Source: Heterotrichella gracilis (lineage: Eukaryota > Sar > Xanthophyceae > Tribonematales > Xanthonemataceae). Taken from it: DNA of 64,000 nucleotides. The first letter of the stretch is position 1, and each line of letters opens with the position of its first letter. The stretch is taken from contig JAULBX010010988.1 of the NCBI GenBank assembly GCA_032358255.1, positions 42,399 through 106,398 of the forward strand. Direction: 5' to 3'. Made by a program: the position numbers and the translations under genes. Positions 1 through 64,000 of the stretch are shown here, one piece after another. The notes under the pieces were generated by a model. It was not told the DNA's origin. It did no database searches and saw only the letters and a list, made by a program, of their open reading frames with translations.

Positions 1-14
1 TCAATGGCTTCCAG

Positions 15-142
15 GTGCTCAAGAACAACATGTACGACCTCAGCAAGGTAAGGGGTACGCTGTATCCTAGAGGTACAACCCTAAACCTTAAACGTTGAAT
101 GGGTCTCAGGTGCTGAAGAGCAACATGTATGACCTCAGCAAG
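15..142 (+). repeat. Exon-edge duplication (micro-exon 15-47 and copy 110-142)
   Basis: The 33-base exon encoding VLKNNMYDLSK is repeated 95 bp downstream as a near-identical 33-mer. The upstream copy has both an AG acceptor and a GTAAGG donor. The downstream copy keeps the AG but runs into ATGAG instead of a donor. Which copy is ancestral cannot be told from the window. Confidence 0.75.
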
Positions 143-2630
143 ATGAGAGACCAAAACCCTTAGACCCTAGGCCGTGTCTTGTCCCGCTAAAAAAGAAGAA
201 TAAGAATAAGGCTTAAAATATATAATGAGTACCCGCCGCCGCTCATTTTTATCCTTGGTGTCGCTCTTCAATGGTGCATCCCCTGGCATGGTTTCAATTG
301 CTTCCATTTACACCCCACTCTTGGTGCAGGGCGAGCCCTCTGTGTTTGCCCGGGAGGCCGCCACCATGTCCGCTATAGAGTTGTTACTCCCTCGCACACA
401 ATCATCTTATGACTGTAGCTGTTACCTCCTCATCTTATGGCTGTCTCTCCTTTTCAATGGGCCATCCCTGGCATGCGATTTTCTGACTGCTTTGATTTTC
501 ACGTGCAGGGGGAGCCCTCGGTGTTTGCCCGGGAGGCCGCCACCATGGCCGCCCAAGCAGCGGAGCCCACCCAACGGCGCCGCAAGTCGCAGGCCGCGGG
601 CCGCGACTACGGTCACAGCGACTTCTGCCAGGTGTGCTGGGACGGTGGCGACCTGCTGTGCTGCGACCAGTGCCCATGCAGCTACCACCCAGAGTGCCTG
701 GGGTACAGCGAGGAGGTGAGGAGTGGGGAAGAATGGGTGGTGGGGGGATTTGGATAATAGCGTGCACTTGTTGCCCGGTTGAAAAGCTTGCGTATTTCAG
801 ACTCACATCTGGTGCGTCCCCCTGCGTGTACGCCGTAAACACTTTATTTTCTTTCTTTACCCCTGCCATAAGTTTTTATCCTCGTGGAATTTCCCGCTGT
901 ACAATTTGGGCCTACCCACCACCACACCGCGGCAGCACCAATTCCCCTTTCCCTCCCCTCATCCCCCCCCCACCCCCCACCGCAGGAGGTGGCCCGCCTG
1001 ACCATGTGGGCCTGCCCCCACCACCGCTGCGACATCTGCCTCAGGAAGACGCAAGCCGCAGGGGGCCTGCTGCTGCGCTGCGAAATGTGCCCCTCCGCAT
1101 TTTGCGAGGACCACCTGCCGGCACACGCTGAAATCATCGGCACATGCGCGCGGTTCCAGGAGCTGGGCCAAGAACAGCCCAAGACGGTGAGTGGGAAGAC
1201 ACCCAATGCTTCAGAAAAGGCCATTTCTGCCTCCCCACCTTCATTCTACTGCAGGGTGCTTCCATCCCCATCACCGTTGCCGTTGCTTGTTACTATCTCC
1301 TACGCCCTGGCTAACAGGCTGCCTTCATCCACAGCTTCACATGCTGCCTACATCCCTATCTACACCCCTTTTGCCACTCCATCCGAATCATAATTCTTAG
1401 CCTGCAGGCTGCCTTCATCCACTGCTGCACAGACTGCAAGCATCTCCATTCTCATCCCATTCCCATTCCAATCCAATCCCACTCCAATCACAATCCAACC
1501 CTGACCACCCCTTACCCGCAGGCTGCCTTCATCCACTGCTCCACAGACTGCCAGCAGTTTGCCAAGCGCTACTACGCGTGGGGCGACCTCAAGCAGGCCC
1601 CGCTGGCCCAGCAGCAATACGCGCTGACGGCGCCGGAGCCAGAGGCGAAAGGTGGGTGGTGGGGAGGGTGGGGAGGGGAGGGGAGGGGCAGGGTTTTGTG
1701 TGGACCCTTAGAAGCGGTACACAGTGGCGGTGCCATGGGGCAGAGGTGGGTGGGTTGTTGGAGGAGGCAAGTCAAGAGCAGGCACCAGTGGGCCAGCAGG
1801 AATATGTATTCTGCACGGTGACAGCACCTGTGCCAGGGGGAAAGGATGGGTGGGATGGAACGGGAGTGGCAAGGACATGTATGCTATGAGTAGGGTTTGG
1901 CTGTACAGCCCAAGCAGCAGTCCAGTTTAGCTGAAACCCTAAACCCTAAACCTTAAAGCAGTACAATATGGCCGAGACCCTAAACCCAAAACCCCAAAAC
2001 AACACAATGTGGCTGAGACCCTAAATCCTACACCCTAAAACAGTACAGTGTGGCTGAACCCTGAATCTTCCCTATCAACCCTTGCAGTCACAGGCCACAA
2101 ACGCACCGGTGCCAAGGGGGCAAAGGGGGGCAAAGGCAAGAAGGTAAAAATGGGGTCGGCCACCAAGTCCCCCGCAGCAGGCACCTCCGCACGTGAGTAC
2201 CCAAACGGGCTATAACGGGCAAGGTGGGTGTGGCGTCGTGGTTTGTGCCCCTACGGAAGTCTCCTTCCTTCTCCACCGCACGCAATGCAGTGCTGTGAAT
2301 CAGTATGGACCAACTGCCATACGCGCCAGTGCTTTGTCATCGCTCCACGTTGTGTTCACCATGCTTGTTTAGGGTTTAGGTTTCAATGCTTACACCCTAA
2401 ACCTTTAAGTGGTGTAGGATGTCTGCTGCTTTGGCTGATTGGCTGTGTCATGTCAACTGTGCCATCCCATCCCACCCAGTACTGGCTTGCGTGCAGGTCA
2501 AGGCCTGACACCCAACGCCATGGCGGTGGCAATGGGCGCAAGGGGCACGGCAGCCGCTGCCGCCACAGCTCTCAAACCCTCCGCACCTCCCGCGCCCCAC
2601 CCCTTCCCCCGGATGCCAGCCCCCGCCTAG
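15..2630 (+). CDS. PHD-finger chromatin protein, C-terminal part (5' end outside the window)
   Basis: Six exons join in phase: 15-47, 509-715, 986-1186, 1522-1651, 2088-2192 and 2497-2630 (stop TAG). The second exon encodes a PHD zinc finger with Cys pairs in FCQVCWDGGDLLCCDQC followed by SYHPECLG. The third carries another Cys/His cluster (CPHHRCDICLRKT, then LLLRCEMCPSAFCEDH), like the extended second half of a tandem PHD module. The fourth exon adds HCSTDCQQFAKRYYAWGD, and the tail is basic (Lys/Gly-rich), then Ala/Pro-rich. PHD fingers read histone H3 tails, so a nuclear chromatin role is likely. From memory this Cys-rich arrangement resembles PHD tails on some SNF2/ISWI-type remodellers of algae and stramenopiles; that is inference, since no ATPase domain is visible here. 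The 11-codon exon 15-47 is the least certain. Introns contain degraded copies of exon edges and CCCTAAA motifs. A convergent neighbour (coatomer zeta) lies downstream. Confidence 0.75.
267..548 (+). repeat. Tandem duplication of intron end plus start of PHD exon (~180 bp period)
   Basis: The segment around 267-366 and that around 452-548 are related: both carry a CAATGG...CCCTGGCATG block, then an acceptor, then coding sequence for GEPSVFAREAATM. The real exon begins at 509; the echo begins at 330, still preceded by CAG. It diverges after the duplicated ATG. Confidence 0.75.
1318..1560 (+). repeat. Two echoes of exon start 1522 (at 1318 and 1408)
   Basis: The acceptor-side sequence CAGGCTGCCTTCATCCAC occurs at the true exon (1522) and twice upstream, at 1318 and 1408. 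Identity is higher in the 1408 copy, which also repeats the following CTGCNCAGACTGC. Both copies keep the AG and lie between C/T-rich stretches. Confidence 0.8.
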
Positions 2631-6818: not shown

Positions 6819-9800
6819 GTCTCCCCACAATTCTTCCCCCTGGTCCATGCCGCAGTGGCGGCCTACCAGCGGGTGCTGGGCGGGCGCCTGATTGGGGTGT
6901 ATGTCAGGGGGAGCGTGGTACAGGGGCTGGCAAGGGAGGGGTTTGCTGACCTGGACACATATGCGTTGTGCTTCTCTCAACAGTCTGCTGAAGATGGAGC
7001 AATTGGCGCAGCAATTGACGGGGAAATTGGGGAAGGTGATTCACCCACTGAGGGTGATGCGCAGCTGCAGGGGGTGGGGGAGCAGCTGCGGCAGCAGCAC
7101 CCTTGGTGCACCAAGGTGGGTGGTGGGGGGAGCCGGGAAGATGGAGGGTGATGCCGAGATGGTACATAGGTGTACACACCGCTTGGTGGGAGCAGGGAAG
7201 AAGAGGGGGTGTGATAATTGAGCACACTGTGGGTATTTTTGTCTGGGGAGTATGTTGATGGATGTGGAGGGGAAGATGCCATTATGGTACTTAGATGCGC
7301 ACTAACATACCCCGATGGTACTGAACCGCTATGTTCAACACAGTCATTAATACCAATTATCTCGAATAAGTGCTTGCCTTGTAGCAGGTGGAAGCCCAGT
7401 AACTAACACCAATCAAATGGTGAAAAAATCCTTTCTGTTTAACACCAATCAAATCCTGAATTTATTATTTTGTTTTAGGCCTTGAAAAGAACTTCGCATG
7501 TGGTCAGGTGGAAATGAAGGTGCACTTCATCGACCCAGCCTCCCATCTGGGCAAACACCTCCACACCCTCCAACAAACCCACACCACCACCACCACCTCC
7601 ACCACCGCTGCCATCACCACCACCACCACCACCACCACCACCAGCCACCACCCCTTCTCACCAGCCTTGCTCCACCAGCTACCCATGGCATTTGAGCTCA
7701 AATCAGCATCGGTGTGCGCCCACGGGCTTGACCTCCCCCACATTTTGCCCCCAGAGGCCGCCCTGCCCCGCTACACCCTCCTACCCCGCTTGGTGGAGGA
7801 TGTGGAGTGGGCCGTACCCCGGGAAACCCCCCCACAGCGGGGGACAGGCGGTGATGCTCCCCTTGGGCTGCCAGCTGGGGAGGGCGAGGGTGCGATTCCC
7901 TCCCAGGGAGGTGCGGCAAGCGGGGCGCGACTCAGAGGGGAGGGCGGAAATTCTGTCCCCTCCCGGGGGGTGGCAGGTGTCGGGGGCAAAGGGGAGGGCG
8001 AGGGTTCGATTCCCTCCCAGGAGGTGTTGCACAGCGGGGGCGGAGGGGAGGAAGTGGGCGCGGTGCGGCGGGCGAGGTGGGCGCTCAAGCGGTGCATCAG
8101 GGGGGCATTCGAGCTGGTGCAGGAACGGGGGGAATGGTACAGCAGGGATTTGTACTGGTGTACCCACCTGGTCAGTAAAGAGCTTCCGCAGCTGGAGGCG
8201 CCCCTCGCCCAGGCCCTGGTCGCCTATGTGCACCTTGAGCGGTGGCTGGGGGAGTCACCCAAGGGGTATGGCGGTGATCATGGTCAAGGGGTGGGGAGGG
8301 GGAGGGGGTCACTGGCGGATCCTTCCGAGGGTGGTGGTGGTGGTGTCCAAGGGGACGATGGTATGGATGGTGGTGGCCAAGGGGAGGAACTGCGCTACCA
8401 CTCCCCCATGGAGTTTGTACAGGCGCTGGTGCATGGATTGGCGCACCAGCTGGATGGCATGTTCCTCAAACAGATGCTCATGGTGGAGCCGCATTACCCT
8501 AGGCTGCCCCAAAACCCTACTGGCTCCACCCTCGAGGGGGGCCACCAGCCCACGGCAACCCCCCCTTCAGACGCATCCCATGGAGGCGGGTCCATGGGGG
8601 GTGGAGCAGTGGGTGGAGGAGGGGGTGGGGCAGTGGGGACCCAAGGGGGTGGAGGGGTGGGTGCACAAGGGGGGGGAGCAGTGGGGGCACAAGGGGGTAA
8701 ACACCGACCACAAGGGGGGTTGGACCGGGTGCAAGCAAAACGGCAGGGCAAGTTGGTTCCCAGTGCGTGGGATCGCGCTCGGCTGTGGGTGCAGGACTTG
8801 GATGCAGGCGCAGAGGGGAGGGACCCCGAGCCAGTCGACGTCACCATCAGCGGACAGGTGGGGTAACGAGCTTGACCTTAAACCCTAGACCGTCCCTCTC
8901 TCTACCTTCATTGTAGCGCACCTGAGACTGCCTTTTACTGTAACTGTGTTATACCTCCTCCTGTTTCCGGGGGGCACAATTTCTGAACAAGATTATCTGC
9001 TGTGCTGCATGGGCTCGGATGCTCAATCCTCAACCCTAAACCCTGAACCCTTGCTCACAGACTTGCACACAGAGGGCACCAGCACTTGCATGTCCACAAA
9101 ATTCTGATGTTACAAAATAAGCTGATAATTGCTACAGGTGGCGGCGTATGAGTGGTCGCATCAAGGGGAGCGAGATGCGGCATGTGCCAGGGTGGCGAGT
9201 ATGGAGACAGGGGGGGTTGGCCTGGGCAGCCCGGGGTATGGTCCGGTGGTCATGCGGGTACGTGTAGGGTTTACGTAGGGTGCTCGAGCCCTGATTGTGA
9301 CATTCAAAATCGTGTAGGGTATGTGTATTGAGTGTCTTACTCAAAATTTGTGTTCATCCCACCAAAAGGGAGCAGCAGCGCACTGGCCGCACACCCCCAT
9401 GCCCATATTAAAATGTTCATTTTACATTCGTAATAGTAGTAACTCGGCAGCGCATTAGCCGGCGGCAACGCCGGACAGGTACACCCATTTTTGCCTTTTT
9501 TCAAATGTTTTTACATGTATCCACAACATGGAGCGGCAGCGCATTGGCCAGCGGTGGGCAGATGGACCCTCACATGGCTGGCCCGGTACACCCCGGTTAT
9601 GCTATGTTTTGTAGCTGTTTTTTATTCATCTAATATTATTTCCATGTCAGGGAGCGGCAACGCATTGGCCAGCGGTGGGGAAATGGACCCTCACATGGCT
9701 GGCCTGGAACACCCTTTTATGCCATTTTTTGTTTCTTTTTATAAGTTTAATATTATTATTATCTGCACCACAGGGAGCGGCAGCGCATTGGCCTGCGGTG

Positions 9801-10940
9801 GGCAAATGGACCCTCACATGGCTAGCCAGGTACACCCCCTTTGATGCCCGCGTGCGCCTCTCCCCCTCCATGCGCTTCCCCTTCTGCGAGCCAGTGCTGA
9901 TGCGCCACCTGGCAGCTGCGCAAGGTGAGCACTCCCTATTGAAAAAAATGAAAACAGTTAGGGTGTAGGGTTTCCTGGGCCCAAAACCCTGCTCTGGGCT
10001 CATGCTGCCAGCTGGCAGCATAAGGTGAGCACTTGCTGCGGAGGATATGGAAGTTGTGGGAATGTGTGCCTACCTCGGAGTGGGCTGTTACGAGTGCGAG
10101 AGGCTTGCGCATTGGCGGGTGGCAACACATGCTAGTGGTTGCAACTTGCATAGTACTTTGAAGTGGAAAAACATCATCTGACATGGATCACGATTTTGCG
10201 CCAACCAGCCCTGTCTTGCCACTGTTTATACCATCACTTGCAATGTCAACGCAGCAAATCGCATAACGCCAGGTCAGCGCAAGTCTTTAACTACAAAATA
10301 ACTTGTCGTCAAATAGGGTAATGTCTACTGCCTGATCAGTCATGACATAAGCCACCTTTTGGAATCCGCAGGCCTGCAAGCCGCACCCAGCGTGCTCCTG
10401 AGCATGGACCTGCGGGAATTTGCCCTGCGCCTGCAATCCCACACCGCCTTCAACCCCCTGGTGTACACCCAAGCCCCAAGGGAGCAATACTACCTTCAGG
10501 CTGTCCTCCCCAATTTCCTCATCCGTGACACGCACCTTGACGCGCCGCCATTCGCGGTTCCTGCGTCCCCGCACACGCGGCGCCAATCCCAGGCCGCCAA
10601 GGTGTGGATCGGGCCCCGCGGGTCGGAATCCCCGCTGCATTTCGACGCCTCGGGGTCCTTTCTGGTGCAGGTCACGGGGAGGAAACGCATGCTGTTTTCC
10701 CCCCCTGAGGACCTCCCTGCCCTCTACCCCTACCCCGATTGGCACCTGCTGAGGAGGAGGTCTCGCGTGGATGTGCACCGCCCCGATTTTTCCAAATTCC
10801 CCCTGTTTTCTGGCGCACGGTCCCTGGAGGTGGTGCTCCATCCTGGGGATGTGCTTTTCTTCCCTGCCAGGTGTGCGCATTACACCGAGAATCTGGACCT
10901 GTCTGTCTCGGTTACATGCCGCTTTGTTGGCGCCAGCTAA
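6819..10940 (+). CDS. Nucleotidyltransferase fused to a JmjC (cupin-8) Fe(II)/2-oxoglutarate dioxygenase
   Basis: Exons 6819-7115, 7508-8857, 9138-9257, 9774-9924 and 10372-10940 join in phase to at least 828 aa; the start lies upstream and is unresolved. The N-terminal domain has the nucleotidyltransferase signature: GVYVRGSVVQGLA, then ADLDTYAL (GS...DxD), and a later acidic strand KVEMKVHFID. It is followed by LKRCIRGAFELVQERGEWYS and RDLYWCTHLV, a helical region common in bacterial minimal nucleotidyltransferases. A long Gly/Thr-rich linker (7576-7660, 8310-8700) follows. The C-terminal domain begins PVVMR-GAAAHWPAVGKWTLTW, has an HxD iron site in SPLHFDASGSFLVQVTGRKR, and the distal His in PARCAHYTENLD. 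JmjC/cupin-8 enzymes hydroxylate or demethylate proteins or RNA. The substrate is unknown. Alternatively these could be two adjacent genes, but phase-0 joining across 7508-9257 argues for one protein. Confidence 0.8.
7576..8700 (+). repeat. Low-complexity coding repeats in the nucleotidyltransferase-JmjC linker
   Basis: The large exon contains a CAC/ACC run coding for poly-Thr (about 7581-7645). Three repeats of a ~55-60-base unit at about 7875-8025 code for GEGEGAIPSQ, GEGGNSVPSR and GEGEGSIPSQ. A Gly/Val/Ala-rich GGGG repeat lies at about 8580-8700. These segments are probably disordered linkers between the two catalytic domains. Confidence 0.75.
9369..9840 (+). repeat. Echo array of the JmjC entry exon (about 9369, 9440, 9530, 9651; real exon 9774)
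   Basis: The start of the exon coding GAAAHWPAVGKWTLTWLARYTP is repeated upstream. Copies at 9530 and 9651 are nearly full length over about 60-65 bases and lie 121 and 123 bp apart; those at 9369 and about 9440 are more decayed. Each is followed by a T-rich stretch ending in TAATATTATT or similar. Only the copy at 9651, like the real exon, is preceded by CAG. Confidence 0.85.
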
Positions 10941-19683: not shown

Positions 19684-22600
19684 TCAGAGGTATGCCTTCT
19701 CCAGTGTGGACACGATCTTCTCCTGGTTGTTGAGCCGGGCCACGTCCAGCGGGATCTTGCCATCGAGGTTCTTGGCTGTGCAGTCGGCGCCACTACGGGA
19801 GGGGGGAGGCGGGGGTAAGTAGTGTGTGGGAAGGTGTTCCGATGTTGGGTAGGGTGCAGAGCTGTGCGGTTGACGTGCAGCATGCCTGGCGCTAGGCGAG
19901 CGATGTGCACATGTGCCCTGTCCATTATCACTCATAATTTATGAGCCAGGATCTTGCCATCAAGGTTTCTGGCGGTGCCAGTCGGCGCCACTGGGGGCGG
20001 GGAGGAAGGGAGGGTTAGGGCAGGCTGTGGGTTCAGGGTTAGGTGACATCAGATGGTGAACGGTGGCTCCCTGTCAGCAGGCACTTGACCCTAAATCCTA
20101 AACCCTAAACCAGTTGTCAGGGCCTTGGTGTCCAGGCACATGGCGGTGGCGTCGGCGCCGATGGCAGGGCGTCAGGGCCAAACTCTAAACCCAAAAACCA
20201 TGCATATGGCAAACGACTCCAGTCCCACAGCACCCAACAACCCCACCCCCACCCACCGCAGGACCCTCCACCCTCACACCATACACCTAACGCACCTCTT
20301 GAGCAGGACCTCCACGCACTCCAGCTGGCCATACCCGGCGGCATAGTGCAGCGCGGTGTTCTTGTTGTTGTCGAGCGCGTTCACATTGGCGTGGGCGCCG
20401 ATCAGCGCCTCTGCGCACGCCAGCTCGCCGTAACCGCACGCAAAGTGCAGCGCGGTGCGCCCCTCCTCGTCCTGCTCGTCTATCGCTGCCCCCTCGTCCA
20501 GGAGCGCCTGCAATTGGGCCACGTCGCCTGCGGATTGGGTGGGGTGGGGTGGGAGTCAGTTGAATCCCTGGATGAGGGCGGTTTTTGTGTATGGGGTGTG
20601 GGTGTGGGTGGTTCCCTCCTCGCCCTGCCCATCTATCGCTGCCCGCCTGGTGCAGGTGCATCTCACATCAAACCACACCACATCACCAACCTTACCCCCC
20701 CCCCCCCCACTACTACAACCCTCCCCACGCACCTGTGCTGGCTGCGCCATGCACACTTGGCTCCTCCTCTCCCTCATCCTCATCCCCCGCCACAATGCCG
20801 CTGCCCACCCCCTCCTCCCGGGTACCCTGGCCGATGCTCACCCCCTCAAATGCGCTGCTCATGGCGCCGCTCAGCTTCTCCATCATGGCAGGGTCGTTCC
20901 AGTACCTGGGAAGCGGGAGTCCAGGATATTAGGGTTAGGGCATGTATTATGGGGTTCAGGGCAGAATGCCGCCATAGCGCCGCTGAGCTTCTCCATCATG
21001 GGCGGATCCTTTCAGTAAACGAGGTAGCTGCTTATTCACAAAGTGAATGAAAACAGTTCCATTCTTTTTTTAAATACTATTTTTACTTTTAGGTCAAATT
21101 AAAGACTGTAACGTTTTTTTTAAATACTAGTTTTACTTTTAGGTCAAATCAAAGACTGTACCGCACTCCCTTCATCAAGGCTGCTGGCCCACCCCTCTCC
21201 TCCCCGTGCGTATGCAAGATCATGCTTCTGGCCAAAGCTTTCCACCTCCAAACCTACCTACCCTCGCACCTCAAGGGACTCAAGGACTAACCCCATGCAT
21301 GCGCAAACCCCGGCCCCCTCCCGCAACCCACCCATAGCCACTCACTCCATCATGGCTGACGGCCCTCCCTCCCTGCCCCGCCTACAACACCCTCACGATT
21401 CCCCAAGAAAACGATACAAAACCATACACAAAGTCAACGCAAAAAAACAATCCATATTCTGTATCTACTTTCAACTTCTCATTTTGATAATATGCTGTAC
21501 CGCACTCACTTCATCATGGCCGCTGGCCCGTCCCTCTCCACCTCCTCCATGACCTTTGCGTAGTCTGGGTCGTCCTTGAGCCCCTTGAGCTTGCTCTCTA
21601 TCTGCTCGCGCACATCCGGGGACTGCATGGACTGCATCATGTTCACCAGGTTGGGGTCCGACTGCAAGGGGAGAAGAAGAAGTTAGTGGTTGCTTAGGGT
21701 CTACTAATCAGGGTTTACAACTGCGAGGGGCTCAGAGCTGGGTGGGGTACAGCATGGACTGCATTATGTTCAAATTGGGGTCCGACTGCAAGGAGGAGGG
21801 AAGAGGGGTGGGTTAGTGGCTGTTTAGTACAGGTTGTAATGGTTGTGTTGGGTTGGGTAGTGCATGGACTGCATCAACTTGACTAAGGTGGGGTCCGACT
21901 GCATGGGGAGAGCAGAGGTTTTAGTGGCTGTGTAGGGTTCAGAGTTCGGCACTGGGGGCCTGCTTGGACTGCAACATGTTCAACAGATTGGGGTCCGACT
22001 GCGAGGAGAGGAGGGAAAGGTGGTTAGTGATTGCCTAAGGTTCATGTTTTGGGTTTTGCGCTGGGGTGAGTACTGCAGGATGCTGCATGGACTGCTGGAT
22101 GTTGACCAGCTTGCGGTCCGACTGCGAGGAGAAGGGAGAAGGGGTGGTTAGTGGTTGTGTAGGGTTTAGCGCTAGGTGGGGTACTGCATGGACTGCATCA
22201 TGTTGGCCAGGTTGGGATCCAACTGCGAGGAGGGTTGGAGGGGTGGTGAGTGGATGTTTGTGGCTTACTACTTAGGACTTAGCGGTGAGGTGGGTACTGC
22301 ATAGACTGCTGGCCAGGTTAGGATTCGACTCCTGCTAGGGCAACCACCTTGCCCCCGCCAGCACCCCCCAGGGGTTACCTTGAGGCGCCTGAATTAGTCC
22401 CCAGGGCCAGAATCGCAGCCACCACCACCCGACGCACCTCCATGCTTTCCGTGCCCAGGCTCTGCGCCATGTCGACAACTCGGGGTTGCTCATGGCCTGC
22501 GTTCCCTAGCTGAGTATAACCCTAAACCCTAAACTGTGAACCCTAGATCGCCTCGCTTGCCACCGAAAACGCAGCCGCCCCACCACCACCACACAACCAC

Positions 22601-23763
22601 CACCGCCAGCCACCGCCACCTGTCGCACCTCCATGATTTTCGTGCCCAGGCTCTGCGCCATGTTGACAAACTCGGGGTTGCTCATCACGCCCTGCATGGC
22701 CTGCATGTACTTGGTGGGGTCAAACCCTGCCATAGGGTCCACGCCGCCAGGCCCGCCTGCCGCCCTGGGTGCCTCTCCCGAGCCGCTGCCCCCCCCTGCA
22801 CCAAGGCCCCCTGCAGCAGCGCCAGGGGCCAGGAGACCTGATATACAGATTACAATACAGGGATTAACGTGAAAAATTATACAAAACACATACGCCTACA
22901 GTGGCATATAGAACTACAAGAAAGGCTCGGGGCTTCCAAGCTGCCCCAACCATTGGGTCACGTGCCAAGTGCGCAGCCACTCCCAAACCACTGCCCCCTG
23001 TGGCATTCCCCGGGGCCTGGAGACCTGATGTACAGGTTTAAGAATGCCTCTCACAGTATTCAAATGCGGCTGTAGCTTGGATTACCTGACATGCTCTCCT
23101 GCAGGGCCTTGGTCATCTCCTGGAAGCTTGGGTCCAGCGAGATCTGCTCAGCCATCTGCTTGATGCTGGGGTCCTGTTGGTGGGGAGGGAGGGTGTGAGG
23201 CTGCGTGATCAAGGGCAGCTAGCACGGGGTTGCAGTGTCTGGACCATGGGTCACTAGATTACACAATACTAGGTAGTGTACCGCTGGAAGGACAGCAGAG
23301 GTGCTGAGGGGACTACTGCTGACTGAATAATATTTGGATACGAATTTGCATATGTATATGCATCAAAACCACGGGGAAAGCTGTGGTATACCTTATGATA
23401 CTGTGTTGAAGCTGCACCAGCACAGGGCAGGAACGTGCAACGGGGGTCACTACGTCCCACAACGCCCTAATGCACTAGTGAATATGTGTTTTCCAAACGT
23501 TTAGGTATCCAACTACCAGCTGGTTGTTATCACCAAAAACGACCGAGCCAAACGGTGCAACCCCATACCACCACCAGCGTTACAACCCGGCCTAACGAGA
23601 CCATGGTTTCGCTGGATATTGTTTGGCTCTGTCCCAAGCTGCACCAAGAGACATCAACCTGATGGCTATGGCCCCACCCCCATACACGTACGTTCAGTGC
23701 CGCCTGCAAGGCGGAAAAGTCGAAGCCTCCCGGCATCCCAGGAAACGGAGGTGCCCCTGCCAT
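19684..23763 (-). CDS. AKR2: AKR2-type ankyrin protein, chloroplast outer-envelope targeting factor
   Basis: Seven minus-strand exons join in phase to 347 aa: 23763-23692, 23173-23086, 22837-22620, 21661-21510, 20905-20733, 20527-20296 and 19792-19684. The order of segments matches plant AKR2A/B: a short N-terminus ([20 protein letters not shown]), [60 protein letters not shown], an acidic linker ([17 protein letters not shown]), then ankyrin repeats [20 protein letters not shown] and [19 protein letters not shown], ending [24 protein letters not shown]. In plants AKR2 binds signal- and tail-anchored outer-envelope proteins in the cytosol and delivers them to chloroplasts, with Hsp17.8 and plastid lipids as partners. 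It is divergent from the F-box gene, 565 bp apart. Its introns are the richest in exon echoes in the window. Confidence 0.93.
19945..21400 (-). repeat. Exon echoes in AKR2 introns 4-6
   Basis: Copies of the neighbouring exon edges lie inside the 3' introns. Sequence like the start of the last exon occurs at about 19950-19995 and, more weakly, 20120-20160. The acceptor side of exon 20527-20296 recurs at about 20618-20650. Part of exon 5 (CGCTGAGCTTCTCCATCATG) recurs at about 20980-21005. The donor end of exon 4 recurs near 21170-21200 and 21345-21375. Two ~58-bp tandem copies of a T-rich unit lie at 21062-21165. Confidence 0.7.
21620..22345 (-). repeat. Six-copy echo array of the start of AKR2 exon 4
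   Basis: On the plus strand the true exon edge reads CATGGACTGCATCATGTTCA then CCAGGTTGGGGTCCGACTGC (minus-strand acceptor at 21662). Recognisable copies recur near 21754, 21863, 21965, 22087, 22187 and 22297, spaced about 100-125 bp. Each is followed by a related GAGGAGGG...GGTTAGTGG spacer and a GGTTTA/GGGTTC motif. Copies decay with distance from the exon; the two farthest have lost parts of the core. Confidence 0.9.
22415..22540 (-). repeat. Echo of the donor end of AKR2 exon 3
   Basis: The end of exon 3 (plus-strand CGCACCTCCATGATTTTCGT then GCCCAGGCTCTGCGCCATG) recurs at about 22433-22495 with small deletions, inside intron 3. A CCCTAAACCCTAAAC tract at 22521-22536 separates the copy from the real exon. 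Confidence 0.8.
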
Positions 23764-24328: not shown

Positions 24329-27300
24329 ATGGCGTCGAATTCCAGTTTCCGTGACTGGACGGAGCTACCAGTAGACATCTGCGAGCAAGTCGCACGCCAT
24401 CTGAACAACGAGGCCATCTTGCAATCTCGTGTCAGCAAGTCCTGGGCACTGTCCTTCACCACCGCCATCACCTCAGCCCGCCTCATCGCGCCCTCCCCCA
24501 CCACCCCACATTTCAGGCCATCGTCCCCAAGCCACTTCAAGCTGCGATTCCCCAACCTCTCCTCCATCTCCCTGTTCCTCCCCAGCCTGGGCTCAACCCA
24601 CAACAGCCTCGTTGCCCTCACAAGCCTGCCGTGGCTGACTGGCCTCACCATCGAAAACGCAAACTGGCACTGCCTCTGTGGTTTTGGGCACCTCAGCAAG
24701 CTTACTCACCTCACCAGCCTCTCCATATTAGAAGCACCCAGCACAGGTAAGCTGCTGGGCAGTTTTGAACCCATGTCGTGCAAGTATTTCACATATTACC
24801 AACACTGTCAGGTCACCCACACCGCCGCTGTCATGGCTTCCTGTTGTATCAAGACTTGGCCACGTTGTGCCACGCCGCAGGCGCCCAAGTTGGGTTGGAA
24901 ATTAATTTCTTTTTCCAGTCAAGTTCCGTTATATTTGGCGTTCATGCCCATGTGTTGCAAGTCATTCCGATCCGGAGCATATTTGCTGAAACTGTTTGTA
25001 ATTCTGATTGCACAGGGCGCGAGGAGACCCAGCCCCAGGAGTGCTGCAGCGCCTGCGGGAGCGACATCAAGGCATGGAGCAGGCTGTTCAGGGTTCTGGG
25101 CGCCATGCCACAGCTGCTAGAACTGACCATCGTTGAGGGCAGGCTCCGAACCCCCGCCTCCTCCGACCCCGCGCTCCTGGCAAAGGTGTGGTTTTATTAA
25201 TAATGTTATTTTTTATTTCTCAAGATAATTCGACTAGAGTACGCTTTTGCTACAAAGGACTTGGAAAGCGTTGTATGGTTGCTCGCCCTTACACTGCTAC
25301 TTCACTGTCCATTTTCAACTTGCGTGTGGTAATCACTAGCACTAATTTAGGGAATTGCCTGAAGCTGTGTTACTGTATGCGTACACTCATTTTGGTGACA
25401 CAGTTAGGTACGTTCTATTTGGTGACTACTTACATTGACGTGCTGTGGCTTGATAATGATTTAGTCACATCGGACCGTCATTCATGGTTGCACGTCCAAC
25501 TCCATGCCTGTGGTAACCACTAGCACTCCTTCATTAGTTAGTTAGTTAGCTAGTTAGTTAGTTACATGCATTCCAGCAAAATAGCCAGATTAGCACTCCT
25601 TCATGGCCAGGATTAAAGCCCTTATGTTTTCACCCTTTTATCCATTTTCACAGGTGTTTTCCAGCCTGAGGCACCTGAAGCGCCTCCAGGCGCTCGACCT
25701 CACCCTGAGTGGCGAAGCTTCCCGCCCGGGCGCGCTGGGCCAGTCCGCAGCGACGCCTGGAGCAATATGCCGCGCCCTGGCGGGCCTCAACCACCTCACT
25801 CGCCTGGCCCTGCGCAACTGCATCATCGTACCCCACTCCAGCGACATCCAGCCCCTCGCAGCCCTCCAGCACCTGCGGATGACGGGCTTCGCCAGATACG
25901 ACGATGACCTCAATGACCTCCCGAGCAGCCTCACTGCCCTCCATGTGGACGTGAACACCCCCACGCTGTACTGGGCATCCCGGGGAATGGAATTTGTTCA
26001 GGGAATGGAATTTCAGGAAGCATCCCAGGGATTAACCGCCATCCTGCCCCAGCTGGTGGAGTTTTCAGTTGATGTGGAATGCTGCACCCCCCCCCCCGGG
26101 GCCGCCATTTTAGACCTCCAGCTTCCCCCAACCACCACCTCCACCGCCTTCCGCCTCTACTCAAAGCGCACCGAGGTCACAGCCATACTCGAGCGCCTGT
26201 GCCACCCCAGCTTCCACCACCATTGCACCCTCCAGAACCTCCAGATCGGGGAGGTCGACGGCCCGGCCCTCAACCTGGCATCGATCAGCAACCTGACAGC
26301 CCTCACGTCCCTATCTGTGCGCAACTTCAACCAGCAGGCCAATCCCGGGGAAACCCTGCTCGACTGCCTGGGGACCCTCACCAATCTGAAGAACTTGGAG
26401 CTGGACTGCCCCGCGGTGCTCTCCATCGAATGGGGCATGTCGGACGACCGCATGGCCGCAATAGCTTCCACCCTCACCAGCATCACCAGCCTTGTGGTTA
26501 CCGACAGTTGGTTCACGCCCCGCAAGGGCAGGCCTGCGCTGGGGGACAAGGGGGTGGAGGCCCTGGTGAAGGGTTTGCCTGGGCTGGTGTCACTGGAACT
26601 GGCGCTGAACACAGTCTCTGAGGCGGGGTTGGTGCACCTGGGGGCGCTGTCCAGGCTGCAGCACTTAAGGTAAAACCCTAAACCGCAACCCTAAACGATG
26701 GCAAGGCAATGACTGGTGCCATGGTTGAACGTGCTCCATGCGATGTACCGTAGAGGTTCTGGGGTTTAGGGTTTCAAGGTTTATGGTTTGTGTCATTTGA
26801 GCTGGCGTTGAACACAGTCTCTGAGGCGGGGTTGGTGCACCTGGGGGCGCTGTTCAGGCTGCAGCACCTCAGGTAAACTCTGAACCCTACTCGTGTGCAA
26901 CAAGACTCCAAACCCTAAACAGCAATGAATCCCTTACCCTAAAACACGCTGTAGAACCCATGGGCAGCAAAGCAATGACCGGATTCCCGCCACCCCCCTC
27001 ACACACCACACGCACCTCACACACCACCATCCCCCACCTGCAGGCTGGCCTCCTGGTTTTCTGCGCAGCACCGCACCCCCTGCTCCCCCCCCTTCCCCCT
27101 CTCCGAGTGCGCCATTTCCACCTGGCCCCGCACCCTCCGCAGCCTGGTGCTGGACCATGATTGGGCAGTGAGCGACCAGGTAGGTGCTGTGAACAAGGCT
27201 GCCTATTCACCCGCCCAGAGCTGCATGCGCAGCGCCTCTGGATTACCACATGGCATTGGGTGTAGCACTGGCTTAAAATGCACAGCTATTTTAACCACCG

Positions 27301-28555: not shown

Positions 28556-28690
28556 AGCTTTAGGGTTTAGGGTTTAGGGTCATGCTGCAGAGGCACCTGA
28601 TGGGCACGCGCCCAGGGCTGTGGGGGTGTAGGGTTTAGGGTTTAGGGTCATGCTGCCGGGGCACCTGGTGGGCCCCTGCACAGAGGCTGC
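28487..28690 (+). repeat. Terminal-exon echoes linked by TTTAGGG repeats
   Basis: The last coding segment (CATGCTGCCGGGGCATCTGG then TGGGCACACGCGCAGGGCTG) is repeated at about 28579-28620 and again, shorter, at about 28648-28680. Each copy is preceded by (TTTAGGG)2-3 GTCATGCTG. The stop codon is not preserved in the first copy (CTGTGG). Confidence 0.9.
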
Positions 28691-38677: not shown

Positions 38678-38720
38678 AGGGGTATACTGATAATACTAGT
38701 TGTATTATTAGTATACCCCT
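38678..38720. repeat. 43-bp hairpin-forming inverted repeat
   Basis: Arms AGGGGTATACTGATAATAC and GTATTATTAGTATACCCCT are complementary over 19 bases with one mismatch, around a 5-base TAGTT loop. No coding sequence is near. It could be a miniature transposon end pair, a small structured RNA or chance in AT-rich DNA. Confidence 0.8.
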
Positions 38721-38969
38721 GATCCATGTATATATATTACTCCATGTACGCATCACGTGCTCTATTTATCCATGCGATGGCAGGCATAAAGTACATATAT
38801 ATGGGCACCTATGGGCACCATGGGTACTTCCTGCATCCACATGTGCACATTGCGCGCTGTGTACCCATGCGCTTGGAAGGAGCCTAACTGCGTTCATTGC
38901 ATGCATGCTGTCCATCACCACCCATGCGCATACGCCATTGAGCATGCATTTTACCTCCCCATCAACCAT

Positions 38970-47300: not shown

Positions 47301-49868
47301 TGACTCAATTTGGGGATCCTTGATCCTCACCTGGGGATGGTTACCCCCACCTTATGTTGCTGTGTAAATGCTTTCTAATGCGGATTGCTCGCCACTCCCC
47401 GCTGCAGGGAATTCGAATCCAGGCAATGCCTGCTATGCCTGCCCCTGTTCTGCGTGTTGTGTATATTCTCCAAGATGCGGTGGTTACCCATTATTTACAT
47501 CTGTGTTCTTATTTCCATTCCAGATTGCGGTGTCGCGGGCGGTGCTTGGCCACCTCCTCCTCCGCCTGACAGCGGCCACCGGCATCCCCTTCTACCGCGA
47601 TTCAGACCTCACCCATGGCCCCCTGCTTGGCCTGGGCGGGATTGCGGCGGTTTCCCGCGTGGGGGTGCCGGGCGTGGAGGAGCTGGTGGCCTGCAAGATG
47701 CCCCTGGAGCGGGAGAAGCGGAAAGACGACTGGGAGGCGGTGGATCTCGCCCTGCGCGAGGCGGTGTGCATGGCCCTGCTGGCTGGCTGCAAGCACGTGG
47801 TGCAGCTGAAGGGGTTTATTGTGGCGTGGAAGGGGCACCCTCGGGGGGTACTCATGCCCGAGTGCCAGCACTCCGGCACCACCATGTGGAGGTGCGCCAC
47901 GTGAAAACCCTATACCCTAAAACCATACACCCCAACCCTGAGTCAGTGGTGGTGGTGCATGTCAACTTCAAAACCCTAGAACCCCTGTGCCAGTGATGCA
48001 CGTACACCCTGAAACCCTAAACCGCTTGGCCTGCTCATGCGCGGGTGCCAGCACTCTAGCACCAGCATGTGGAGGTGCGCCACGCCCTGCCTACCCTTGA
48101 ATCTATGAACTTCACTGCACCCGCCTGTGTAGCCTGTCCAGGACCGCATTGTCACCCTGTGTCTGTGGTGCAATTTAACCCTAAGATAATGAAACTCTGT
48201 GTCAGTGATGCATGTTAACCCTGAAACCCTATATTGCTGGACGTGCTCATGAGCGTGTGCCATCACTCTGGCACCACCCATGTGGAGGTGCATCACGTCC
48301 TGTGTATCCATACACAGGGATATCCCTGTAATACCCTAAACCCTATATCCATCACCAAACCCTAACCCACTACTGTGTTAGGTACCTCCTGTGGCTAGAT
48401 AGGCTAACCACTTCGTGCTCTACCCCTGTGCAGCGAGCGCCTGCAGGCCGCGCACATGGCCGCCAACGAGGGCCGCCTGGAGCGCGACATCCTGAGCATT
48501 ATTGCAAGCATCGCGGAGGGTGTGGCAAGGATGCATGCGCGGGGGTGCGTCCATTTCGACCTCAAGCTGGACAACTTGCTGGGGTACATGGAGCACGGCT
48601 CGGGCACACCAAAGCTCTGGATTTCGGACGTGGGGGGCGCGTCGATCCCTGGGAAGAATGGGCTGGCGTTTCCGTTTATGTAAGTAGCTGACATGCAGTC
48701 GCCTGTGCCTCCTTGCTACACCTACACTCTGCTAAGCCTAAACCCTAAACCCTAAATAACCCACGTGTGCCTCCTTGCTGACCTCAACCCTTAGTACTGA
48801 AGTAGCTGAAGCCTGGGACTCCTTACTGACCCTAACACTAAACCCTAAACCACTTTTGTTTTGCCTGTCAGTCCCTGGGAAGGATGGGCTGATGTTAGCA
48901 GACACTAAACCCTAAACACTCAACCCTAAGCACTCACCCGTGATACCCATGACTCCTTGCTGACCCTCAACAATGAACCCTCAAGCGCTCACCTGTGACT
49001 CCTCTTTTCCAAATTTGCCTTTAATACACCAGGTGCAGTACATCTGTGTCTAGATGTATTTGACTTCCAGCAAGCCATCACTGCCCATGCCTGCACACTT
49101 GACGCTGTTGCGCTCATGCAGTGCGTAGATAGTTACTCATTCTACCCACACATTTGCTGAGGCTGCGGCATATATGACATACTTGTCGTCCCCTTAATCA
49201 GTTAGATTATTGAGGTCCGTCATCCCTTGCCCATGCGGCCGCCCATCACCTCGAAATCCACCCACCTTAACCCACCCCCCCATTCCTGCCTCCCCCTGCC
49301 TCGCCCCTCACACAGATGCACCCCGTCCTGCTACCCTCCTGAGATCTTGAAGCCCAAGCAAAACTGAAACCTAAACCCTAAACCCCTCCCCCACAGGTGC
49401 ACCCCATCCTGCTACCCCCCTGAGGTCCGGAAGGGCAAGCGCATGGTGCCCGGCCGCGCCTACGACATGTGGTGCGTTGGCCTCATGCTGGAGCAGATCC
49501 TGGAGGGCGCTCTGGAGGAGCAGCCCCACCAGGTGCCGAGGTGGCTCAAGCGCAGCCTCAAGGGTGTGGTGGGCGCCTGCCTGCGGGAAAGCACCTGGTG
49601 GCGGTGCACAGCGGAGGGCCTGGTGTGCAGGGTGGAGAAGGCCCAGCGCCGCAGCGCAGCGGCAGCCGCCAGGAAGACGGCGGAGGAGCAGCGCAGGAGG
49701 GCAGGGGGCCACAGGGCCGCGCGGCAGGAGCCGGTGCCAATGGCGGTGCCGCTGGCCATCCCCATCCCCATCCCAGGCCCGGTCCCCACGCCTGCTGCCA
49801 GGCCCATCCCCAGGCCTTTCTCATTTTGGAAGTGGGCAGTTCCCATGCCAGCGCGGATGCGGCTCTAG
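44398..49868 (+). CDS. Divergent protein kinase, kinase family copy 2
   Basis: Seven exons join in phase to 772 aa: 44398-44499, 44672-45075, 45597-46051, 46526-46797, 47524-47891, 48434-48679 and 49397-49868 (TAG). The product starts MATNNKCGEYLLLPQKTCLR, continues with Ser/Pro/Ala-rich disorder (PLQEDGLLAAPSSPAESDSG), then a helical block (YHDWLANPEPEFLEALEAPT). The kinase domain has a degenerate glycine loop (GLGGIAAVSR), ACKM lysine, catalytic loop VHFDLKLDNLL (HFD for HRD), DVGG for DFG, CYPPEV and YDMWCVGLMLEQI. The tail is basic, then Pro-rich (PLAIPIPIPGPVPTPAARP). The catalytic Asp and Asn are kept, so it may be active, but the loop changes leave room for a pseudokinase. Introns contain echoes of exon edges. 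Copy 3 lies 9.7 kb downstream in the same orientation. Confidence 0.78.
46930..47330 (+). repeat. Donor-side echoes of exon 46526-46797
   Basis: CCACCGGATCCAAAGGACCC-ACACCAGGTGA and GTCAGCATGGGGATCC from the exon end recur at about 47156-47204 (nearly perfect) and, decayed, at about 47270-47322. The upstream GGAGCAGAGGGTG / GGGGGCAGAGCGTG segments near 46927 and 47078 copy an earlier part of the exon. CCCTAAACCCTAAACCCTAG lies at 46943-46963. Confidence 0.85.
47870..48310 (+). repeat. Donor-side echoes of exon 47524-47891
   Basis: The exon end TGCCAGCACTCCGGCACCAC-CATGTGGAGGTGCGCCACG recurs at about 48047-48084 and about 48257-48296, with two and several changes. Blocks such as CAGTGGTGGTGGTGCATGT / CAGTGATGCACGTACACCCT are repeated between them, with AACCCTAAA motifs. 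Confidence 0.85.
48625..49400 (+). repeat. Intron 6 of kinase copy 2: echoes from both sides and telomere-like motifs
   Basis: GTCCCTGGGAAGGATGGGCT at about 48871 echoes the donor-side exon (ATCCCTGGGAAGAATGGGCT). Repeats of CCTCCTTGCTGACCCTAACA plus AAACCCTAAACC follow about every 60-110 bp. Near the acceptor, GATGCACCCCGTCCTGCTAC-CCTCCTGAGATC at 49316 echoes the real exon start at 49397. Confidence 0.85.
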
Positions 49869-49919
49869 TGGATGGTACTCAGCATGGGAGCTTTGAGCTT
49901 TTAGGGTTTACCTAAACCC

Positions 49920-50205
49920 CAGGGTTTGCTGGCAGACGCGTCAGCTGGTAGGGATGGCATTGGCCAGGCGCGGGTGAACGGAGCACGCCTTGGTAGGAGG
50001 TTTCTACAGTGCGCCAGCAATTGCTGCTGCGCATTTTTGCAGGCAGCCATTTTAGCCATTTTCCCCGGCAGGTGGCGTCATGCATTGTGTGGCTGGCAGC
50101 ACTGCGCTCATACCCTGGCAGTGCCGCTGAGGCTCACTAAGCACAATGCTGTGGACACACCATGCTGCATTTGCCTGTATGCGCACGTAGCGCACAGGCG
50201 TACCT
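49920..50205 (+). repeat. 3' flank duplicated with 59465-59795 (kinase segmental duplication)
   Basis: GCTCATACCCTGGCAGTGCC-GCTGAGGCTCA and GCTGCATTTGCCTGTATGCG-CAC occur after both kinase copies 2 (50106-50200) and 3 (59703-59793), as do GGCCAGGCGCGGGTGAAC-like sequences nearer the stops. The duplicated unit therefore extends at least about 330 bp past the coding region. Confidence 0.85.
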
Positions 50206-61306: not shown

Positions 61307-63676
61307 TCACAACCCCAGTGGCGGCACGTAGAACTCGCGCCCCGCCATATCCGACAGCCTGATGCGCTCCCCCACCCCCATCTGCGTGCACTCCTCGCGG
61401 ATGCTGTTGAACAGCACAGAGGACAGGTAGCGCTCACCAAAGCTGGGCAGGATGACCACCATGAGCTTGCCCTTGTTCTCGGGCCGCTGGGCAACCTGCA
61501 GGTTTAGGGTTTGGAGGTTTAGGGTTTAGAGTTTGTGGTTTTGCGGTTCAGGGTGACCACGATGAGCTTGCCCTTCTTCCCGGGCCGCTGGGCAACCTGC
61601 AGGTTTAGGGTTTGGAGGTTTAAGATTTAGGGTTTTGAGATGTAGGGTTTAGGATGACCATGATCAGCTTGTCCTTGTTCTCGGGCCGCTGGGTAACCTG
61701 CAGAAAGGCGGTACGTCAGGGTATAATTTAGCGCTTGCGAAATCATGTTGCTTTGATCATGCTGTCTTAGATCATGCTGCGTCGATGATGCTCCTATGCT
61801 GCTATCGATTGAAACCAATCTTCCATGCTGCCTGCTGGCGTGCCCTTAGGCAGTCAGAGTAACATCGAGGTGCCTGCCGCAAGGATTCGCCTGTGCGATC
61901 CAACGGCATAGCCAAGTCAGCATTTTGCTGGGTATGCCCCACTCCTGTCCTCGAGCCGGGGACTCTCGAGTCGCCGCTTGCAGTGTTGATGCAAATAGGT
62001 GCTGAGCCACTGCTGACCATTCATGTCGCTCAAGCGCACATCCAGACAATCCACCTTGCACCCCCAAACCCGCACCACCTGTATTGCTGCCAAATTCCAC
62101 AGCACATGGTTGCAGCCCCTAGGTTGCCACCCATTTCCAACCGCAGGGTGCACCCGCTTGCATTGCTACCCAAGTTGCATCCACAAATTCACCCACCTGA
62201 ATTGCTGCCACCACCGCTGCCCCAGATGAAATCCCAGACAGCAGCCCCTCTTCGCATGCCAGCCGCTTGGCCATGGTGATGGCAGCCTCGCTCCCCACCT
62301 TGACAACTTCATCATACACCTTGGTGTTGAGGACCCCAGGGATGAAGCCTGGGGATGGAAAGGGGAGTCAGTGCGATGCTGAAACTAAAGGCTCTCTACT
62401 GCAATGTTGTGGACGGCAGGGTGTAGATTTCGGGGTTTTCAGTGCCGCGACCTGCCCACGCTCATTCATCACCACAACACCCGCCATTCCTATTGGGTGA
62501 TCAACGGTATCCTCCCTCACCTTCCCAAACGCATGCAAGTAATAGTAGTGCCGTCCCTCACCTGCCCCGATGCCCTGGATCTTTAGGGCTTAAGGTTTAG
62601 GGTTTTCACGCCTGCCCCAACACCCCATGTAACCAGATGGAACCCTCGCCTGCCCCAATGCCCTGGATCAACGTTTAGGGTTTACAGGTTGATATTTGTT
62701 GCCTGCACCACAACCCATGTGACTACATTGCAGCCTCACCTGCCCCGATGCCCTGGATCTTGTGCGCCCCCGGCGTCCCCCCCGACAACACAGGGCTCTC
62801 CTCAGGCTCGACCGCCACGATCTGGACGCTAGGGTTTTGCTGCAGCAGGTATTCCCCTACCCCAGTGACAGTGCCCCCCGTGCCCACGCCAGAAACAAAA
62901 ATGTCCACCTGCAGGTCACATGTGCATTTACGTGAATTTGGCCCCAGTGACAGTGCCCCCGGTGCCCACGCCAGAAACAAAAATGTCCACCTGCGCATGC
63001 GCAATTTCCCAAATTTGGCAGGGTGCAAAACAATGTCCACCTGCGCATCTGTGTGGACGGAGAGTGGCAGGGTGCACAAAATTGTCTCTTTGCAAATTTT
63101 GCGTGATCACACTTTGGCTGGGTGCACAAAAATGTCCACCTGCAAAATCTTGCATGATCACAATTTGGCAGGGTGCACCAAAATTGTGCTTGCGGTGTGG
63201 CTTTGCCCAGCTCCTGATGCCGTCATTACGACGGCATTTGCAGCACGCTGTCTGTACGACGCTAAACCCTAAACTAGGGCGTAGCCACGCCGCCTGGCCA
63301 GCAGCGCCCCCCATATTTTGAGCCCCTGGGTCACCCGGTGGATGGCCGCATTTGCAAAAGAAATGGAGGAGGGATGAACCAAAACCAGCATAAAAGCGCA
63401 GGCTATAAAGCTATGGTACACCGCCGACCAGGCCAGTGCACGCATTGGATGACTGCCCTCCAAAATGATACAAATTACCCTATAACCCACCTGGCCTGCC
63501 GTGTCCCGCCATATCTCGGGCCCCGTGGTTACCCGGTGGATGGCCGCATTTGCCGGGTTCTCAAACTGCTGCAGGATGAACGCGTCCTGGGTGGTTGCGG
63601 CAATCTCCTCTGCTTTGGCCACCGCTCCCTTCATACCCTTGGCAGGGTCTGTCAGGACCAGCTTGGCCCCAAAGGC
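61307..63676 (-). CDS. Cysteine synthase (O-acetylserine (thiol)lyase), C-terminal part; 5' exons outside the window
   Basis: Four minus-strand exons join in phase to the last 231 aa: 63676-63491, 62908-62740, 62348-62197 and 61495-61307. The sequence follows plant and bacterial Cys[53 protein letters not shown], the PLP-phosphate loop [63 protein letters not shown]. The enzyme makes cysteine from O-acetylserine and sulfide using PLP. The PLP-binding lysine and any transit peptide lie in exons beyond 64000, so cytosolic, plastid or mitochondrial location cannot be judged. The C-terminus is somewhat extended past SIREECTQM ([20 protein letters not shown]), slightly longer than typical. Each intron is filled with exon-edge copies. 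Confidence 0.92.
61496..61705 (-). repeat. Two acceptor-side echoes of the last cysteine synthase exon
   Basis: The plus-strand sequence GATGACCACCATGAGCTTGC-CCTTGTTCTCGGGCCGCTGGGC-AACCTGCAG of the exon start is repeated at about 61552-61602 and 61652-61702, each with its CTGCAG. Each copy is followed by GGTTTAGGGTTTGGAGGTTTAG-like telomeric sequence, so the period is about 100 bp. Confidence 0.92.
62550..62740 (-). repeat. Two donor-side echoes of exon 62908-62740
   Basis: CTCACCTGCCCCGATGCCCT-GGATCTTGTG at the real donor (62736) recurs as CTCACCTGCCCCGATGCCCT-GGATCTTTAG at about 62559 and as CTCGCCTGCCCCAATGCCCT-GGATCAACG at about 62646. Both are followed by TTTAGGG-type sequence and keep the donor dinucleotide (AC on this strand) except where mutated. 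Confidence 0.9.
62908..63180 (-). repeat. Acceptor-side echoes of exon 62908-62740
   Basis: GTGACAGTGCCCCCGGTGCC-CACGCCAGAAACAAAAATGTCC-ACCTGC is repeated at about 62946-62995, then only the last part (AATGTCCACCTGC) at about 63031 and 63132. Intervening GGCAGGGTGCACAAAA / GCTGGGTGCACAAAA units form a short tandem array. Confidence 0.9.
63295..63360 (-). repeat. Donor-side echo of exon 63676-63491
   Basis: CATATTTTGAGCCCCTGGGT-CACCCGGTGGATGGCCGCAT-TTGC (63311-63356) copies CATATCTCGGGCCCCGTGGT-TACCCGGTGGATGGCCGCATTTGCC of the exon (63511-63556). The GCCTGGCCAGCAGCGCCCCC just before it resembles the exon's donor end. Confidence 0.85.
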
Positions 63677-64000
63677 CTGTGGAAAGAAAATACATGCATA
63701 AATAATCGAAGTGGGGGATTTAAGTAATGTAATACCATTATAGTATACTAGTATTATAGTACAACCTAAAAAAGCCATCTTCCGTGCCACGCTCCCTTCA
63801 TACCCTTGGCAGGATGTTTAAGGACCAGCGTTGCCCCACAAGCCTGTCTGACAACAAATTACATGTTGAGGTTGTAGCGTGGGAGCCCTTTTTTGGTAAA
63901 AAGGTCTTAAATGCTAACAATCAGAGATATCACACCGCCTGAGCCGTGCAGGTGGCGCCTTTGCGTCGCTCAGAGGTGTTTTGTGGCATAACAGGCGCAT
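63677..64000 (-). repeat. Window end: intron with an acceptor-side echo of exon 63676-63491
   Basis: GCTCCCTTCATACCCTTGGC-AGGATGTTTAAGGACCAGCG-TTGCCCCACAAGCCTGTC at about 63790-63850 copies the exon start (63625-63680) with several changes. No further cysteine synthase exon is visible before the window ends. Confidence 0.8.

Follow-up and report, generated by a model that had tools for sequence, protein, structure and literature searches.

We analysed a 64,000-nucleotide stretch of DNA from Heterotrichella gracilis (GenBank assembly GCA_032358255.1, contig JAULBX010010988.1, positions 42,399 to 106,398 of the forward strand), hereafter the window, in which introns carry copies of the edges of their neighbouring exons, here termed exon echoes. 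It makes up the terminal portion of a 106-kb contig in an assembly of 68.5 Mb and 903 contigs. Its genes include a cysteine synthase (OASTL), an AKR2-like gene (ankyrin repeat protein 2), an LRR-protein gene, several related protein kinases, a JmjC gene and a PHD-finger gene. Intron lengthening is poorly understood outside transposon insertion. In the usual unit described here, X-filler-X, a segment of some 30-100 bp (X) lies on both sides of a single-copy filler, which in part of the cases consists of telomere-like repeats (TTTAGGG/CCCTAAA; X-telo-X).

The cysteine synthase, which is 73-80% identical to the best 14 of 120 matches listed (the named ones being from the green algae Chlorella, Micractinium and Coccomyxa, which points to a chlorophyte host), is encoded on the minus strand and has echoes in all three of its complete introns: of both edges in the first, of the donor edge in the second and of the acceptor edge in the third. 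Exon A (63491..63676) has a donor-side echo of its end at 63311..63355 and an acceptor-side echo of its start at 63790..63843. Upstream of exon B (62740..62908), acceptor-side echoes of its start occupy 62942..63190, the nearest being about 53 bp long and 98% identical over its exonic 49 bp, with shorter ones further away; downstream, 62556..62669 holds two donor-side echoes of its end with CCCTAAA filler between them. The last exon, D (61307..61495, placed by tblastn searches that used homologues from chlorophytes and the exons joined together), has an acceptor edge that is the source of two echoes of its start, at 61549..61602 and 61650..61709, all on the minus strand. The first of these has telomere-like filler on either side (X-telo-X-telo-X), and the tracts interleaved with the exon D echoes (61501..61653) read TTTAGGG on the plus strand and CCCTAAA in the direction of transcription.

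The AKR2-like gene, also on the minus strand, has an exon at 21509..21661 that is the source of an acceptor-side array at 21662..22330, in which five clear copies and a fragment can be read from the sequence; AG precedes all five copies and CTAAC three of them. A donor-side X-filler-X at 22416..22685 has copies of 79 bp at 91% identity and a telomere-like tract in its filler. Inside an intron of the same gene, a 50-bp AT-rich unit is present twice, nearly identical and head-to-tail with no filler (21065-21160). The LRR-protein gene, on the plus strand, has a donor-side X-filler-X of 98 bp at 90% identity with telomere-like tracts in the filler (26587..26886), a donor-side X-telo-X (28231..28353) and an X-telo-X-telo-X at the end of its coding sequence (28512..28689), as well as a rare head-to-tail case, an acceptor-side duplication of 107 bp present twice (27508..27721).

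Related protein-kinase genes lie at 34880-40110, 44600-49930 and 54240-59420, and fragmentary copies of the first lie behind it (38.8-40.1 kb). On the plus strand, kinase-1 has an acceptor-side X-telo-X at 36013..36162 with a tract on its left outer flank too, and kinase-2 has a donor-side X-filler-X with CCCTAAA-like tracts at 47851..48084. Before the last mapped exon of kinase-2 stands an acceptor-side X-telo-X (49311..49440; copies of 49 bp, filler of 32 bp), the site of which is empty in two paralogues. Two of the kinase open frames carry proline-rich repeats with periods of 12 or 24 bases at their ends (49717-49810 and 59267-59420), and repeats of 63-66 bp, which may be coding, intronic or both, are densely arrayed upstream of the mapped exons of the kinase gene kin3 (55742-56877). 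Elsewhere on the plus strand, a 123-bp unit is present three times upstream of a putative JmjC exon (9522..9838), the last unit running into an open frame, and is probably acceptor-side. The PHD-finger gene has a probable donor-side echo with a telomere-like tract between the copies (3..142), a probable acceptor-side echo (264..552) and an acceptor-side X-filler-X (1396..1556).

That these copies are real and specific to the neighbouring intron, as the original prediction had claimed from the sequence alone, was borne out by a comparison of up to 60 bases at each exon edge with the introns of the gene. Exon models in the window came from a codon-usage scan, homology and the manual exclusion of obvious echoes, which is a caveat on the edge counts; of the 14 genes entered, the single-exon JmjC gene has no internal edge, and 13 were therefore counted. 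A copy was found in the exon's own intron at 26 of the 88 internal edges (acceptor 11/44, donor 15/44), against 1/88 for the intron on the exon's opposite side and 0/268 comparisons with the remaining introns of the gene. Acceptor copies thus lie upstream and donor copies downstream, as had been predicted. In the own intron, shuffled sequence gave 0/88 and the reverse complement 1/88 edges. Within the window, 22 of 46 edges had an echo. Echoes had been reported in eight of nine genes; of the seven window genes whose edges could be tested, six had at least one, and the tested edges of kin3 had none. The absence of echoes from coatomer zeta held at the level of its region, in which no pair less than 4 kb apart was found between 2066 and 7876, the gene itself being known only from a 25-residue piece (E = 0.004).

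The same picture emerged from self-alignment, which the original prediction had set as its check. A self-BLAST of the window gave 102 direct and 19 inverted pairs, with 58 of the direct pairs less than 300 bp apart. Across 26 chunks (seven from the window and 19 fetched), 131 direct and 8 inverted pairs lay within 1 kb, and Markov-shuffled chunks, with one shuffle per chunk, gave no local pairs.

Exon echoes extend beyond the window, at a weaker level. Chaperonin genes were located by a Pfam search; six loci were picked for their widely spaced exons, without regard to repeats, and five were added later, so that 11 of the 12 loci with at least two matched pieces were examined (C409, with two pieces, and C180, with one, were left out; C263, with one, offered no edge for the test and lacked local repeats). 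Echoes were found at 9/86 edges in these 11 genes (4/42 in the first six loci and 5/44 in the five others). Among 18 stretches taken from other contigs at steps of contig number, seven had at least one local direct pair. In the seven window genes, 17 of the 23 introns have duplication spans, which take up 54% of the intron bases; in the eleven chaperonin genes the figures are 10 of 43 introns and 11.6%. The window is therefore an unusually rich region, and the description of the echoes as pervasive fits its introns but not those of the chaperonins. A higher density in genes than in intergenic DNA was also considered: hand-drawn gene spans held 79 pairs in 38.8 kb and the 25.2 kb outside them held 3, but a mechanical partition based on coding sequence left just 44 of the 82 pairs in its 27.8 kb (of 64 kb), and since it lacks the strong contrast we make no claim of gene-specificity.

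The anatomy of the unit, L-X-filler-X-R, is that of an insertion with a long target duplication. Pair geometry was measured in 18 sequences (the window, L010 and L012-L028 without L022), in which 110 of the 134 pairs in 234 kb were more than 5 bp apart, pairs inside arrays included. The spaced pairs had a median spacer of 102 bp and a median copy of 61.5 bp. GC content was 0.50 in spacers, 0.61 in copies and 0.57 in the outer flanks. The youngest long case, in the chaperonin gene C395, consists of a 54-bp exon end plus GTGG, a 55-bp filler and then X again, identical at 57 of 58 positions, and a 34-base piece of its filler occurs once in the whole 68.5-Mb assembly at up to 3 mismatches. For the X-telo-X of kinase-2, an assembly-wide search returned two other loci, paralogues about 69% identical (kin3 in the window and a relative on contig C135, locus L066), both with the intron and a single X and without the tract. 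Since the paralogues have the intron but no echo, the kinase-2 event hit an existing intron, or was lost twice.

The telomere-like filler, absent from the original prediction, is concentrated between the copies. The window contains 57 telomere-like tracts, compared with 0 in each of three shuffles. Telomere words occur inside 36 of 87 duplication clusters, where 2000 draws of random spans of the same length averaged 19 and never exceeded 32, and they cover 6.2% of spacers, 5.0% of copies (partly from alignments that run through a tract), 1.2% and 2.5% of the outer 100 bp and 1.5% of background. Repeat copies within 15 bp flanked the tract on both sides in 15 of 110 tracts, against 26 of 1100 random positions; this tract set comprised 18 sequences, from which L001-L009, L011, L013, L015, L022 and L025-L028 were left out. 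As a weak control, since they belong to other organisms, viral contigs with a telomere 21-mer (22 stretches, 66 tracts) had no tested tract flanked at a score of at least 30, one tract lying at a sequence end. Perfect CCCTAAA arrays stand at the start of contigs C70 and C140, and this plant-type telomere is ancestral in green algae (PMC8226300). With every tract of an array counted separately, 34 of 48 genic tracts in hand-drawn spans have CCCTAAA in gene sense.

We consider it probable that exon echoes are scars left where staggered double-strand breaks were repaired in an error-prone way, the filler being telomeric in some cases. From the structures left behind, we infer the break, its stagger, the fill-in and the origin of the telomeric filler. 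Two nicks on opposite strands some 30-100 bases apart, or an equivalent break, would leave overhangs that carry X; both would then be filled in, with foreign or newly made DNA placed between them, and L-X-R would become L-X-filler-X-R. In a good part of cases this filler would be telomere-like repeat. Such an event should be nearly harmless in an intron or across an exon edge, since one complete edge survives, and should usually destroy the frame inside an exon. Some introns would receive repeated events or undergo secondary expansion, giving arrays. As only near-harmless scars survive, the surviving ones would lengthen introns, and with the exon copy under selection while the other decays freely, scars at exon edges would stay recognisable longest. 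Of the consequences that the original prediction had suggested, intron lengthening is supported by these data, while intron gain was not seen: at the only locus with paralogues, kinase-2, the echo-less copies already have the intron.

Several observations weigh against this reading. No event was observed directly, and there is only one empty site. Local direct pairs were wholly lacking from 11 of the 18 sampled stretches, and 51 of the 87 clusters contain less than 10 bp of telomere-like words, so that telomeric filler, though common, is not general, being confined to a minority or decayed in the others. In some arrays a tract also lies on the outer flank. Duplication of an [X telo] unit would produce this arrangement, which suggests that the unit expanded at a later stage. 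At L063, which came from a genome pattern search, neither of two tracts is repeat-flanked. One or more break bases were in the register of the telomere repeat at 3 of 11 readable loci (15 examined), where chance gives 25%, the tracts being decayed and the number small. To these is added the excess of exon-intron pairs among young clusters described below.

The echoes could instead be simple short tandem duplications, by slippage or unequal exchange, that span a splice site and whose spacing is mimicked by later divergence, much as the original prediction had proposed. A minority of pairs has this form, 6 of the 134 being adjacent and 18 lying in overlapping arrays, such as the duplication at 27508-27721 and a 122-bp array at 15217, and arrays probably grow in this way after a first event. 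The filler, however, resembles neither flank in any of the 25 young single pairs (identity of at least 85%, spacer of at least 20 bp), with scores below 30 throughout and a highest of 29. In C395, at 98% identity, the loss of a second spacer is not credible, and the kinase-2 paralogues lack the tract as well as the second X. As the main form, tandem duplication is mostly refuted, and we regard it as an unlikely origin of the echoes as a whole. Nor did identity fall with distance from the exon, as had been claimed (Spearman -0.19, p = 0.21, n = 43 in 18 genes; -0.14, p = 0.39, n = 42 in the 11-gene count).

Another explanation is that exon edges are targeted through splicing, either by RNA-templated repair from pre-mRNA or by breaks at the junctions. 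The copied segment has a median of 49 bp of exonic and 5 bp of intronic sequence, with the exonic part longer in 31 of 31 echoes. Duplications between exon and intron outnumber those between intron and intron by 43:14 in pairs and 29:7 in clusters (18 genes), where uniform placement predicts 1:1. However, because an exon copy hardly changes, such pairs should be detectable for about twice as long, and this slower decay alone predicts an excess of about 2:1 by our estimate, which explains most of what is seen. Among young clusters (at least 85% identity) the ratio of 17:3 is somewhat above that prediction; counted as pairs, it is 22:4 in 18 genes and 21:3 over 11 genes, the seven genes outside the latter count including one with intron-intron pairs. 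The pinning of the duplication boundary to the splice site, which appeared strong against a naive uniform model (up to 20% divergence), fell to p = 0.03-0.08 once the divergence and indels of each echo were modelled, and we do not claim it; under this decay model the shortness of the intronic part departs only weakly from expectation (one-sided p = 0.08 with all 25 echoes, 0.04 with the 20 at 85% or more and 0.03 with the 12 at 90% or more). Six of the 31 echoes, with the splice site outside the alignment, were dropped from this modelling and from the decay counts below. No copy was noticed running into the next exon as spliced cDNA would, though no systematic search was made. Targeting through splicing seems to us improbable, and the repair of staggered breaks does not require that exon edges be targeted.

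A mobile element or an Introner-like family with long target-site duplications would also place two flanking copies around inserted DNA. The fillers nevertheless behave as single-copy sequence: with telomere-like words masked, the 58 fillers from single-pair clusters, 5020 bp in total, had 0 matches elsewhere in the 234 kb, to which the unique piece of the C395 filler may be added. This upholds the distinction from Introners that had been drawn at the outset. Moreover, X at some 30-100 bp is far longer than the 3-9 bp reported for some Introner families (PMC9860276), and we hold an origin of this kind to be very improbable.

Whether echoes could be tandem duplicates retained for a function, as alternative or cassette exons, turns on how the copies age. 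In 25 echoes, the exon and its copy differ by 52 synonymous and 80 non-synonymous changes. This synonymous share of 39% is close to the roughly 40% that we estimate for one constrained and one free copy. Third codon positions hold somewhat more of the differences than expected (57 of 132, p = 0.03); this might be taken as a mark of coding function but has the same explanation. Frameshifts are present in five of these echoes and stops in two. The copies decay like unconstrained DNA and not like conserved cassette exons, so the suggestion in the original prediction that echoes supply such exons is unsupported and, in our view, highly unlikely to be right. Its other suggestion fared better: AG is kept in 9 of 12 acceptor echoes, in line with the claim that splice signals are often retained, and GT in only 9 of 19 donor echoes (the aligned copy stopping short of the splice site in 2 acceptor and 4 donor kept cases), and decoy splice sites may therefore exist among them. 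Lastly, the assembly is a draft of many contigs, some of them bacterial-looking, but an artefact is exceedingly improbable given that the copies differ mostly by 2-35%, that fillers are single copy, that many contigs are involved and that exon edges are respected.

If echoes are scars of staggered-break repair, the filler invites a further and much more tentative proposal, which we think possible though doubtful: that the telomere-maintenance machinery serves as an everyday tool of break repair. Telomerase would add TTTAGGG at 3' overhangs, and C-strand fill-in would complete both, so that X-telo-X would form in a single step. Survival would favour tracts with CCCTAAA in gene sense, since CCCTAAACCC resembles a branch point and a pyrimidine-rich 3' splice region and TTTAGGG would create decoy AG sites, and intron length would in this way come to consist of telomeric scars filtered by splicing. 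The lack of enrichment for bases in telomere register makes telomerase a possible source but not a demonstrated one, and the capture of telomeric DNA fits equally well.

The original prediction held that no named element behaves in this way, which is too strong. In mammals, telomeric repeats inserted at staggered breaks with duplication of the flanks are published, with such duplication at 3 of 66 horse loci (complex cases excluded), 6 of 130 rodent loci and 4 of 25 primate loci; its ascription to staggered breaks is that of the horse paper, and the fingerprint of mammalian telomerase is break bases in register with the telomere repeat (PMC7215372, PMC2246262). The echoes share with these interstitial telomeric sequences the organism's own telomere repeat as an internal insert (in part of the echoes), an empty counterpart (here two paralogues at one locus) and a flank duplication that abuts the tract. 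In contrast to the mammalian loci, where flank duplication is minor, here it is the visible signature, is intronic, involves copies of some 30-100 bp and surrounds a filler that is often not recognisably telomeric, and in-register bases show no enrichment among the few readable loci with their decayed tracts.

Other relatives of the pattern are found in general repair. The telomere fill-in complex CST-Pol alpha-primase gives rise to small tandem duplications at 3' overhangs, in a process that depends on CST, 53BP1/Shieldin and Ku (PMC8355091), and insertions in rice have been ascribed to asymmetrical nicks and patch-mediated break repair (Vaughn and Bennetzen 2014, via the review PMC7407515). 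As here, tens of bases are duplicated by overhang fill-in or paired nicks and the genome expands slightly; as far as these accounts go, however, they describe general mutations and not a principal origin of intron sequence marked by copies of exon edges and by telomeric filler. The RdRp gene of potato (PMC4974935) likewise has a duplication across an intron-exon boundary that supplies splice signals, but it created a new intron, whereas here, at the locus with paralogues, an existing intron was lengthened, and the copies are mostly separated by filler. Introners (PMC9860276) also add much intron sequence and are reported mainly from fast-evolving lineages such as green algae, yet they form dispersed families, whereas the fillers tested here are single copy. 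Each ingredient is thus known, and their combination as a source of intron length was not found described: among the open-access titles and abstract beginnings listed, none reports X-telo-X at exon edges in introns, subscription papers being mostly outside the search. The scars are of many ages, from 98% identity to barely detectable, and lie beside their source, so that their rate, spectrum and survival could be measured and their effect on splicing tested. They also offer a natural system for studying a possible role of telomere enzymes at internal breaks in organisms other than mammals.

Two minor observations concern the surroundings. An open frame contains, at 7877-8051, some three imperfect repeats of a 54-bp unit in which a motif like GGTTCGATTCC resembles a tRNA T arm; ARAGORN found no tRNA in the window. 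Two of the 18 sampled stretches, L011 (contig C1) and L022 (contig C100), have a GC content of 35%, and L011 is 91% open frame, which indicates that bacterial contigs are probably present in the assembly, with L022 perhaps belonging to an organelle.

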